Shown here piece after piece: positions 46,374 to 57,392 of a stretch of DNA of 64,000 nucleotides. Numbering within the stretch: position 1 is the stretch's first letter; every line of letters begins with the position of its first letter. The stretch comes from a virus. The translations under genes and the position numbers were made by a program. The stretch covers positions 1 through 64,000 of IMG/VR virus record IMGVR_UViG_3300000956_000011; one strand, given 5' to 3'. Under the pieces are notes generated by a model. The model was given only the letters and a program-made list of their open reading frames with translations, had not been told where the DNA came from and searched no databases.

Positions 46374-46697
46374 CTAGCTAGCCGTATCCGATTCTTCGGC
46401 AGGATGCAAGCTCCACCTCAATTCGGTTACACAGACGGCGAGAGCCGCCAGTACCCTTTCCAGGGCCTTGCGGTCTCCACGAGCGAACTTGGCCGCCATG
46501 GCTGGCGCGATGCCTGCCTCCGTCAGTGCGCCCATGCGCTGAACCACTTTGGCCTCGCTCATCGACCAGTCGTATTGCATGCCACCGAAGCCTCGTCCCG
46601 GTGCAGGCACGGGCTTGATGTAGCCCTTGACGATCCAGTTGTCCAACTGGCGTCGGGTGATCTTGGCCCAGCTGATCACCTGGTCGCTGTTCGGCAT
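46374..46697 (-). CDS. MerR-like DNA-binding protein
   Basis: The protein has 107 residues. It reads as a winged helix with ITRRQLDNWIVKGYIKPVP, then a Gly-rich wing and a helix ending in GIAPAMAAKFA. Excisionase and MerR-type regulators share this pattern. The position next to a secreted protease and ThyX suggests a regulator of accessory genes. Confidence 0.75.
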   Translation of the reverse strand: MPNSDQVISWAKITRRQLDNWIVKGYIKPVPAPGRGFGGMQYDWSMSEAKVVQRMGALTEAGIAPAMAAKFARGDRKALERVLAALAVCVTELRWSLHPAEESDTAS

Positions 46698-46709: not shown

Positions 46710-47345
46710 TCAGTACAACCGATGCAGACCGGCCATGTCTCCGGCTTGGAAGACCCGCTTGCCGGTACTGCATGGCAACGTCTTCGCCGCCATTACCTGA
46801 GACGGGTCACTGGCATGACCCAGTCCCAATATGTGACCGGTCTCGTGAACTAGGACGCCCCACACGTCGAACTTGTCCGTACAACCTGTCGGAACGTTAC
46901 CCACGAAGTACTTCCGACCAGTACTCAGGAGTACGTCCGATTCGACCATACGAGAACGCCTTGTCCACGTGCAGGTGCGCGCCACCGCCGAGAGGCTTCC
47001 CCAGCCGATCACGCTCACCTTGTCGCTACGGCCACACTGGGTCGCACTGGGCACGCCAGGGCGCGCGGTCGTCGTACCCCGGTACACCTGCCGCACCTGG
47101 ACTCCAGACAGCCCGCAAGCGTTCTGACCGCTGAAGGCGTTGGCCACCGCTCGGCGTGCCGCAGCCAGCCCGTCCACGGGCTGCCCCGTCGGATTGTAGT
47201 ACCAGTTGAAGGTGTCCGTCACGCGCCAACCGGTCAACGAGTAGGCTGCGGAATCACAGCCAGGGGAGGCCATTGCCGGACTCATCGGTGTGATCACGAT
47301 CATTCCCACGATCAACGTGAGGGCGAGCACCAATGGTTTGTTCAT
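46710..47345 (-). CDS. Secreted matrixin-type zinc metalloprotease
   Basis: The protein has 211 residues. A signal peptide covers about 1-26 (hydrophobic core LVLALTLIVGMIVI, cleavage near MAS). The mature part has the metzincin zinc motif HETGHILGLGH (His 167, Glu 168, His 171, His 177), followed by a Met-turn candidate at 185. The mature part is small and Cys-rich (about eight Cys), so disulfide-stabilised. Matrixins digest extracellular proteins. AAAGGGAACACA precedes the ATG. A host-derived acquisition is possible; the target is unknown. Confidence 0.85.
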   Translation of the reverse strand: MNKPLVLALTLIVGMIVITPMSPAMASPGCDSAAYSLTGWRVTDTFNWYYNPTGQPVDGLAAARRAVANAFSGQNACGLSGVQVRQVYRGTTTARPGVPSATQCGRSDKVSVIGWGSLSAVARTCTWTRRSRMVESDVLLSTGRKYFVGNVPTGCTDKFDVWGVLVHETGHILGLGHASDPSQVMAAKTLPCSTGKRVFQAGDMAGLHRLY

Positions 47346-47382
47346 TGTGTTCCCTTTCATTCGTCGCCCCCGACGTTTTCGG

Positions 47383-48627
47383 TTAACGGGCAGCGCCCGG
47401 GTCCAGCAGCCACTCGGCGGGGCGAATGGCAGGGATAATGTCGTGCCTGGTTTCCTTGTCGGCCCACATGAACAGCTCTGGGTGCGGCTGGTCCCACTTG
47501 CGTTTTCCAAGATCGGCCTGAACCGACCACTGTGAACTGTCCCGGCCGATGGCTGCGTTCGCGTCCACCCGATCGCGAATGCTGCACTTACGGTCGAAAT
47601 TGGCCTTGAACTCGCACTTGCCCGTCAGGTAGCACACCGGTCGAAACAAGTCCGCGATGGCCTCGTACTGCCAGCGATCGCTATCCCATGCCAGGTCGAG
47701 GAAACTCTCAACGTGCTCGTCGCCGAGATTGCGCGCTGCCGTCTTGAGACCAGCATACGGGCTGTACTCGCGAATGGCCTGTGCGATCTGCGCGAACACC
47801 AGCCGCCACTCGAACTGAGCCTGCGTGCACAACCGGTTCCCTGCGTGGTCCAGCAGGGCACGCAGGTCCGTGCAGTAGTGCAGGCGCGTGAGAGTGTTGT
47901 GCGGCAACAGACCCCGCGCGTCCTCGGCGGGCATCCCCATGTCCACCAGCTTCTTGTATTCGCGGCCGATGACCTTGACCGCATTGTCCCAGTGCTCGCG
48001 CTGCCGCTCGGCGTCGCTGGCCAAGTCTTCCTCCTCCCAGCTCACCCGACTGCCCTCCGTGCCCGCCAGGGACGGAGGCAGCCCAACGGGCATGTCCTCC
48101 TTCACCGCGAAGCGAAGGCTTTCCTGCGCGTACACCGCCGTGCGCTGCCGGACCATCTGGTGCGTGAAGGCACGCGTGACACCCTCGATCATGAAGTGGA
48201 ACTTGACGAACTCGTACGGGGCCTTGAGCTTCGTGGCTTTCAACTGCTCCACGTATTCCTGACGCTCCGCGTGCGTCACATCCCGCAAGCTACGCGCCAC
48301 CTCGCCCTTGTACATCTTGGAAGGAGCTGCGATCACGGCCAGGGGGTCGGTCGTCATCCACAGGAGATGTACCTTGGGACCCTGCGTAGCGTCGATGGGC
48401 TCCGCCGTGAACATGGCGCTGTCCGCCCACTTCTGCACGGTCTTTCCGGGCACCACACGGTCTGCTTCGTTCTCCAGATTCGCGTAATACTGGCGCTCCG
48501 CGAAGGACTGCTCCCGACCAGGTCTCTCGTTTTCCACCACTTCTCCGTTCAGTTCAGCCATGATCTGCGTCACGGCCTCGTCCATGTACTTGCGAGCCAA
48601 CCGAAGCCCGTCTGACCCCGGTCTCAC
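47383..48627 (-). CDS. thyX: FAD-dependent thymidylate synthase
   Basis: The protein has 414 residues. It carries a ThyX-type motif at 160-172: R-Q-R-x7-S-x-R, with Gln, Val and Ala replacing the usual His, Ser and Asn of RHRxxSxNxxSxR. It also has TRAFTHQMVR before it and LLPHNTLTRLHYCTDLRALL later. It would methylate dUMP using FAD and folate. It is longer than usual (about 250). The GTG start overlaps the preceding stop (GTGA). Confidence 0.9.
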   Translation of the reverse strand: MRPGSDGLRLARKYMDEAVTQIMAELNGEVVENERPGREQSFAERQYYANLENEADRVVPGKTVQKWADSAMFTAEPIDATQGPKVHLLWMTTDPLAVIAAPSKMYKGEVARSLRDVTHAERQEYVEQLKATKLKAPYEFVKFHFMIEGVTRAFTHQMVRQRTAVYAQESLRFAVKEDMPVGLPPSLAGTEGSRVSWEEEDLASDAERQREHWDNAVKVIGREYKKLVDMGMPAEDARGLLPHNTLTRLHYCTDLRALLDHAGNRLCTQAQFEWRLVFAQIAQAIREYSPYAGLKTAARNLGDEHVESFLDLAWDSDRWQYEAIADLFRPVCYLTGKCEFKANFDRKCSIRDRVDANAAIGRDSSQWSVQADLGKRKWDQPHPELFMWADKETRHDIIPAIRPAEWLLDPGAAR

Positions 48628-49923: not shown

Positions 49924-50631
49924 TTACTGCTCGCCAGCGTCGAACGGGATGATGAGTCCGTTGTGCGCGTAGCTGAACGTGGCGAGATCCTGGACGATCC
50001 GTCGGGCAAGGTCTGCAGGTGGGAGGCCTTCGGGCGGGACACCTGGCATGCGGTGCAGTTCTCCACTGAACTGCCTGCGCGTCTCCTCGGTCATTGGCGT
50101 GCCATCCAGCAGACCAGGTTCGTAGCCCCATACCGCGACCCTGCCGTCCCCGGCCAGTTCCCGTGCAGCCACTCTCAAGGCCATGCTGAGGGCTGCCTTG
50201 CTGGCGCAGTAGGCAACGCTGTTGCGCCGGGCGATGCGAGCGCTGTTGCTGCTGATGGCCACGAACTTCTTGGTATTGCCCTCGCGTTCAGGCCGAACCG
50301 GACTGGCGAGGAAGTGCCGCAACAGTTCCATGGGGCCAGTGACGTTGACGCCGAACGAAGTAGACATCTTGGCGGCGAGATACGCGTCCATTATCTCAGT
50401 GGTCATGTTCATGCCAACTGTGCACACGACAATATCCGGCTTGACTTCGGTCAACACCTCGCCGATCCTGGCGCTGTGCAACAGATCCAGCTTGATGAAC
50501 TCCTCGTTGATACCTGCGGTGTGAATGGTTCCGAACTCCCAGTCGCACGCAAACATCTCGTCCACGATAGCGCTCCCGAGACTGTCGGTTGCAGCCCCGA
50601 CGACGAGCACGTCTGGTTCGACCTCAGGCAT
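49924..50631 (-). CDS. Short-chain dehydrogenase/reductase (SDR)
   Basis: The protein has 235 residues. A Rossmann start (VVGAATDSLGSAI), a NAG-like NMT segment, a catalytic Ser in SSNSA and Tyr-x3-Lys in YCASKAAL match classical SDRs, which oxidise or reduce alcohols using NAD(P). It overlaps the 209-residue gene by eight bases. SDRs are rare in phages; a role in nucleotide-sugar or base modification is speculative. Confidence 0.87.
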   Translation of the reverse strand: MPEVEPDVLVVGAATDSLGSAIVDEMFACDWEFGTIHTAGINEEFIKLDLLHSARIGEVLTEVKPDIVVCTVGMNMTTEIMDAYLAAKMSTSFGVNVTGPMELLRHFLASPVRPEREGNTKKFVAISSNSARIARRNSVAYCASKAALSMALRVAARELAGDGRVAVWGYEPGLLDGTPMTEETRRQFSGELHRMPGVPPEGLPPADLARRIVQDLATFSYAHNGLIIPFDAGEQ

Positions 50632-56215: not shown

Positions 56216-56598
56216 GGCAACACAACCCCCTCCACCGTTGCGGGTGGTTGGTAGTTGGGACCTTTCAGGACCTTACCGTCCTCGCGCATTATTGGTTTGC
56301 CGTCGACGAGTTTGGACATATTGGAGGCGTGAACACGGCGCAATGCCTCGTCAATGTCAAGACCCAAGGCCACTCCCGTTCCGTATAAGACGTAGACGGC
56401 ATCTGCGATCTCCTTGGCCACACGACCCAGGCAACTCACGTTTTCTGGGTCGAGCATCAGCTCTGCCAATTCGTCACCGAGCTCGGCGTATTCCTCGGCC
56501 ATCAACCTCCAGCGTAGCTGAACAACATCGAGGGATCTTTCATTGATGTGGCTACCGAAGATTTCGTGGAACTCACGAACCATCTCCTGTGGCGTCAT
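56212..56598 (-). CDS. MazG-like nucleotide pyrophosphohydrolase
   Basis: The protein has 128 residues. The alpha-helical motif E-E-x2-E (AEEYAELGDEL) and the later KEIADAVYVLYG supply the metal-binding Glu and Asp residues of MazG enzymes. It hydrolyses nucleoside triphosphates to monophosphates, which fits removal of unwanted nucleotides. It overlaps both neighbours. Confidence 0.86.
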   Translation of the reverse strand: MTPQEMVREFHEIFGSHINERSLDVVQLRWRLMAEEYAELGDELAELMLDPENVSCLGRVAKEIADAVYVLYGTGVALGLDIDEALRRVHASNMSKLVDGKPIMREDGKVLKGPNYQPPATVEGVVLP

Positions 56599-57392
56599 GA
56601 AAACTCCTTCACTTTGCGCGCAGTGGCTTCGTAGGCCTCATGGCTCAGTACACCCTTTTGCCAGCGCCCGTAGCGGCCGACTCGCAGAATGGAGGGTAGG
56701 CAGTCACAGTCCGCGCTGAGCGGCTTATGAAATTCAGCCACGTCTTTCAGCGGTGGCTTGCGCCTATGCCCAGGCCATTCAACTGTTGTGTAACCGAAGA
56801 CATTGCACGCGCGGTACCAACTGACGTCGTTACCACCCTGGCACCACACAGTGAAAGGTGGAACGCGGTACCCGTAGTCTTGTTCGACACTTTGCCGCCC
56901 AGGCGCGTCCCCGATGGCCCAGCACTTAACAGACGAGAAAGTGTGCTGGTCGCCTGCCTGGCACAACACTGGAGCGGGCAGGCTGCTGATGCACGCGTCG
57001 GGCATGAAGTCACTCAGCATCGGCACAATGTCGCCTGGCGACAACCGCACGTCTACGATCCGGTCAGTAAACCGATGCCAGAGACGATCGTAGGTTGCTC
57101 GCAAATCCCAGGCGAGATGGTTGCCCGCGTATTGCTGCGGACTCACCGGGAGGGAGAGGCTTCCGTATACCTTACGCCGATATTCTTCAACTTCACCGTA
57201 CAGCCGGTACTGAACCTCCTCGCCATTTCCCTCTGTGACACCGGGAATAGGCGCGTGCAGGTACTGGCATCCGTACAAATGAGACGGACGTGAAACGCTC
57301 AGGATCTTCACCTCCGCCCCGGTGTTCTCCGCAGCTTGTGCGCTGATGAGCCCAGCTGGACCGCAGCCCAGCACCAATACCCGCGCGGTCAT
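56595..57392 (-). CDS. FAD/NAD(P)-binding oxidoreductase
   Basis: The protein has 265 residues. It starts with a Rossmann fold (VLVLGCGPAGLISAQAAENTG). The middle and end contain several Cys and Trp but no second obvious motif. It overlaps the MazG gene by four bases, so it may act in a nucleotide or base-modification path. Substrate unknown. Earlier in-frame codons overlap the 89-residue gene, so the ATG at 57392 was chosen. Confidence 0.8.
   Translation of the reverse strand: MTARVLVLGCGPAGLISAQAAENTGAEVKILSVSRPSHLYGCQYLHAPIPGVTEGNGEEVQYRLYGEVEEYRRKVYGSLSLPVSPQQYAGNHLAWDLRATYDRLWHRFTDRIVDVRLSPGDIVPMLSDFMPDACISSLPAPVLCQAGDQHTFSSVKCWAIGDAPGRQSVEQDYGYRVPPFTVWCQGGNDVSWYRACNVFGYTTVEWPGHRRKPPLKDVAEFHKPLSADCDCLPSILRVGRYGRWQKGVLSHEAYEATARKVKEFS

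Follow-up and report, generated by a model that had tools for sequence, protein, structure and literature searches.

A matrixin-family secreted metalloprotease gene in a phage with a putative actinobacterial host

Among the closest described systems, the metzincin Mtz and the lipoprotein Tim of Listeria are encoded by prophage accessory genes and sensitise cells to phage lysis (PMC8235301). Mtz cleaves Tim, the wall is altered and the effect spreads to neighbouring cells; this sensitisation depends on the partner lipoprotein Tim (PMC8235301). Matrixins are also annotated in eight Maribacter phage records, including the isolated tailed phages Colly_1 and Molly, where the protein carries an export signal. 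Karilysin, a matrixin of Tannerella forsythia, is a cellular enzyme.

Here we describe a putative secreted matrixin encoded by the IMG/VR record IMGVR_UViG_3300000956_000011, a 65.4-kb linear virus contig of which positions 1 to 64,000 were analysed (64,000 nucleotides, hereafter the window). Compared by features, the protein resembles Mtz as a secreted metzincin with an extended zinc site and a Met-turn, encoded by an apparently accessory phage gene. In contrast to the Mtz-Tim system of phage origin, which combines a metzincin with a TIMP-like lipoprotein (PMC8235301), no lipoprotein partner was found beside the gene described here, and lysis genes are lacking from its neighbourhood. No lipobox protein, and with it no Mtz-Tim-like pair, was identified among the called genes of the window. 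Colly_1 and Molly likewise encode a matrixin with an export signal, but theirs is of the lipoprotein type, unlike the signal predicted here, and similarity between the two proteins is confined to the zinc-site region (22 residues, 45% identity).

Of 50 IMG/VR contigs taken from the matches listed for the zinc-site pattern, 22 exceed the PF00413 cut-off, a number that may include viruses of eukaryotes, which IMG/VR mixes with phages. Again among the matches listed, these contigs resemble the phage protein only around that site or in its C-terminal part. One record (L069 in G027, 472,749 bases) contains six matrixin-like matches and represents either a giant virus or cellular DNA that was classified wrongly. 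The initial annotation had described metzincins as mainly cellular enzymes; the case is a real one, yet the surprise at finding one in a phage was overstated, since the Maribacter phages, the IMG/VR contigs and Listeria Mtz precede it. Protein searches with the phage protein or a Streptomyces homologue identified no relatives in sequenced phages. In IMG/VR, two profile-guided scans recovered no relatives of the actinobacterial subfamily to which the protein is compared below, and a search recovered none beyond a stretch that is probably the record itself or a near one. Within the collections searched, we thus found no earlier phage example of this subfamily.

The protease gene and its catalytic domain

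The gene and its product contain the following features:

46710..47345, minus strand: matrixin-family secreted metalloprotease gene, 211 amino acids (open reading frame, Pfam profile, codon usage)
47351..47357, minus strand: Shine-Dalgarno-like AAAGGGA, 5 bases before the ATG at 47345 (sequence)
47268..47345, minus strand: predicted Sec-type signal peptide, residues 1-26 (MNKPLVLALTLIVGMIVITPMSPAMA), cleavage between AMA and SP (sequence, hydrophobic stretch)
46713..47246, minus strand: catalytic domain, residues 34-211, matrixin fold (AlphaFold2 model, karilysin fold match)
46815..46847, minus strand: zinc site HETGHILGLGH, residues 167-177 (sequence; kept in homologues)
46788..46802, minus strand: Met-turn region SQVMA, residues 182-186, the sequence running on as SQVMAA (Met185 invariant in alignments)

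The reading frame of 211 residues lies exactly where the initial annotation had placed it, and its strand, which was not given there, is minus. The corresponding reading of the plus strand contains an in-frame stop, and codon usage scores 0.11 per codon in the protease frame versus negative scores in the other five frames. An in-frame ATG at 47360, five codons upstream, provides an alternative start. The AAAGGGA motif agrees with the earlier claim that the gene has its own ribosome-binding site, and a promoter scan revealed no convincing promoter of its own.

The protein matches the Pfam profile PF00413 (matrixin, peptidase M10) with 36.4 bits against a cut-off of 24, and with 37.4 bits in the genome search. 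Membership of M12, M66 or M6 was ruled out, as the profile scores stay under the cut-offs (Reprolysin, M12, 18.8 vs 27; M66, 13.7 vs 20.6, both Pfam). NCBIfam yielded weak partial matches only, and sequence matches in the PDB are mainly to human matrix metalloproteinases (MMPs), around the zinc site and the C-terminal part. Met185 is located eight residues past the third histidine of the zinc site; this Met-turn position and its invariance in homologues bear out the Met-turn candidate proposed earlier. All six cysteines (C30, C77, C104, C125, C155 and C192) are within the mature part, a pattern that, to our knowledge, karilysin does not share.

An AlphaFold2 model built with 26 homologues reached a pLDDT of 82 and a pTM of 0.80, with low confidence confined to the segment 1-25, which coincides with the predicted signal peptide. 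Structural comparison (Foldseek, VIA-align), which had been suggested as a check, placed karilysin and MMPs first over the whole domain (Z 14.6-16.7), in agreement with a matrixin fold; the best match was karilysin 2xs4 (Z 16.7, rmsd 2.5, 144 residues, ~20% identity). Fold matches among viral models comprised MMPs of baculoviruses, ascoviruses and entomopoxviruses, as well as Lactobacillus phage 3-521 and Maribacter phage Colly_1. Profile, homologues and fold together back the original description of a secreted matrixin-type metzincin with complete catalytic residues. The gene is a genuine matrixin (M10-type) gene and, judging by sequence and model, its product is very probably active as an enzyme. 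The cysteine-switch motif PRCGxPD in the pro-domain of animal-type MMPs is absent, and only about eight residues separate the predicted signal-peptide cleavage site from the catalytic domain, unlike in karilysin, which has a short pro-peptide.

Actinobacterial relatives and the DUF6281 gene

Closest to the phage protein are secreted "peptidase M10" proteins of Streptomyces, Kribbella, Kineosporia and Nostocoides, which share 28-36% identity with it over the domain. All full-length relatives found come from actinobacteria, namely from Streptomyces plasmids and the genomes of these four genera. In an alignment of 31 rows (the phage protein and 30 cellular homologues), H167, E168, H171, M185, C77, C104, C125, C155 and C192 are invariant. 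At the third zinc ligand, four of the 28 full-length rows have D and the others H, and the sixth cysteine, C30, is present in 27 of the 28. By alignment, the phage protein has the cysteines of the actinobacterial six-cysteine matrixins, with which it also shares the catalytic domain, the zinc site and the Met-turn.

The cellular proteins differ in that some 100-150 additional residues separate their signal peptide from the catalytic domain. C30 is preceded by 29 residues in the phage protein versus 135 or more in the cellular ones, some of the latter counts being inflated because cellular starts were taken from the longest open reading frame; the phage form therefore consists of a predicted signal peptide and the catalytic domain. 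In the tree, the phage protein branches outside its cellular homologues and has a very long end branch (3.9), which makes its placement uncertain, and for this reason no donor can be named. Nonetheless, we infer that the phage took up the gene from secreted actinobacterial matrixins.

A DUF6281 gene, which encodes a small secreted protein with a lipobox in most loci, is located just downstream on the same strand in 29 of 36 actinobacterial matrixin loci, just upstream in one further locus and ~3.4 kb upstream in another. The gene pair was observed in Streptomyces and other actinobacteria (L002-L005, L008-L038 and L040). In the phage record, by contrast, the Pfam profile found no DUF6281, although it did detect the family in two Streptomyces plasmids that served as positive controls. 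The DUF6281 model shows a weak likeness to the immunity lipoproteins NisI and SpaI (Z 5.1), and the list of its fold matches contains no TIMP or potempin, which excludes neither. No mention of DUF6281 was found in the literature searched. The pair is reminiscent of an enzyme encoded together with a protein that controls it. Both the N-terminal extension and the DUF6281 neighbour are common in the subfamily, albeit not universal, and the phage protein has neither. This absence of pro-region and partner suggests that the phage enzyme is less restrained than its cellular relatives.

Gene neighbourhood and related phages

The phage encodes a terminase, portal and tape measure proteins, a helicase, a primase and DnaE. 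DnaE shares ~45% identity with its counterparts in Arthrobacter, Streptomyces, Nocardia and Microbacterium phages and, together with the kin of the protease, points to an actinobacterial host; the gene content is that of a tailed phage. A temperate lifestyle was set aside on finding no match to a tyrosine or serine recombinase in the phage, an absence that does not prove it lytic. The protease gene lies in the genome region devoted to replication and nucleotide metabolism, where it is flanked by two genes:

47383..48585, minus strand: thyX, encoding thymidylate synthase, directly upstream with a 37-base gap (PF02511, E 8e-32)
46374..46697, minus strand: helix-turn-helix-like gene, 107 amino acids, directly downstream with a 12-base gap (conserved in relatives without the protease)

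The protease gene is probably transcribed together with the surrounding replication and nucleotide-metabolism genes. The likely lysis genes, identified by position and hydrophobicity, are at 12.2-14.5 kb, ~33 kb from the protease, and no Pfam match is named among them. Elsewhere in the window, the minus strand encodes a short-chain dehydrogenase (FabG-like, 49924-50610), of which related phages have versions with about 38-62% identity, and a protein whose start, VLVLGCGPAGL, resembles that of a nucleotide-binding oxidoreductase (56595-57392). The latter gene ranks last in codon fit among the larger genes and is perhaps recent cargo as well.

The PF02511 match confirms ThyX as the adjoining gene, as initially annotated. 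The label of MerR-like regulator given to the other neighbour is unproven, as neither Pfam nor PHROGs returned a match for the 107-residue protein, and the PDB gave a marginal one to MarR (E 0.09). Ten related phages were found via thyX. None of them, several being fragmentary records, contains a matrixin above the cut-off, and one has a sub-threshold match elsewhere. In two of these phages, L163 and L168, the gene order around thyX and the 107-residue gene is kept with other small genes in between. Judged by their translations, those of L163 encode a membrane protein, a zinc-finger-like protein and a coiled-coil-like one, and those of L168 an HNH-like protein and a coiled-coil-like one. In L168 (1-3223), the DnaE match is broken by ~910 bases (1441 to 2351), possibly an intein, an intron or an inserted gene.

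The 107-residue protein has homologues of 38-46% identity in L163 and L168 and is therefore not tied to the protease; a role as dedicated protease regulator was ruled out, as the gene is conserved in phages without the protease. Since thyX is conserved without the protease as well, adjacency signals no functional link. Because the syntenic phages carry other genes at this position, the protease, judged by gene order, is accessory cargo. It is not part of the lysis cassette. Three roles had been put forward in the initial annotation, namely cutting host surface or secreted proteins during release, aiding spread through mycelium, and cargo; the last is now the best supported, given that relatives sharing the gene order do not carry the protease.

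Proposed role of the exported protease

With family, fold, catalytic residues, cellular kin and insertion relative to related phages established by computation, the best overall explanation, to which we assign a probability of roughly 0.7, is that an actinobacterial matrixin serves as exported phage cargo that cuts envelope proteins. The protease would be exported by the host Sec system via its own signal peptide and would fold under oxidative conditions outside the membrane around structural disulfides; an action on that side of the membrane is highly likely from these predicted features. Since the gene has no long pro-region, activity may begin directly upon export. There it would cut wall-associated proteins, lipoproteins or exported proteins of the host in a zinc-dependent manner, and the weakened or altered envelope would aid release or spread of progeny, as with the prophage-linked Listeria metzincin. 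That envelope-protein cleavage helps release or spread is a tentative proposal; by analogy with Listeria, such a role in mycelium leads, and surface alteration comes next.

In the latter case, the exported protease would remove or cleave host surface proteins, such as receptors or binding sites of rival phages, and thereby exclude superinfecting phages or stop re-adsorption of released virions to debris. The location of the gene is compatible with this, as it encodes a secreted protein and sits with replication and nucleotide-metabolism functions instead of in the lysis cassette, and so is the accessory distribution typical for such genes; however, the papers found show this action for no phage matrixin, and we consider it rather unlikely. 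It is improbable that the protease counters a host defence or a competitor protein by degrading extracellular proteases, inhibitors or other exported host proteins harmful to the phage, or that it harms the host itself for want of its DUF6281 partner. The DUF6281 genes, mostly with lipobox, that adjoin the bacterial relatives and are missing from the phage would fit such a function, but the likeness of DUF6281 to NisI and SpaI is only weak.

Similarly improbable is a recent passenger without benefit that is on its way to loss. Its codon fit is the fourth lowest among 40 genes of at least 450 bases and it is absent from the syntenic relatives, but reading frame, active site and six cysteines are intact even though known relatives share only ~30% identity with it, which points to selection over a long period. 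Very improbably, the phage uses its matrixin, free of pro-region and DUF6281, against a host protein normally kept in check by the bacterial pair, in which case DUF6281 would be a bacterial matrixin inhibitor or immunity lipoprotein, the phage lytic and its enzyme a stripped-down form.

The gene adds a clear actinophage case to the small number of secreted metzincins carried by phages, and links it with one particular subfamily of cellular enzymes. Furthermore, the Streptomyces matrixin and DUF6281 form an apparently unstudied gene pair that resembles an enzyme with a control protein. Should the phage protease weaken the envelope of filamentous actinobacteria, proteolysis would emerge as a further aid to release or spread, next to the wall lysins that phages usually employ.
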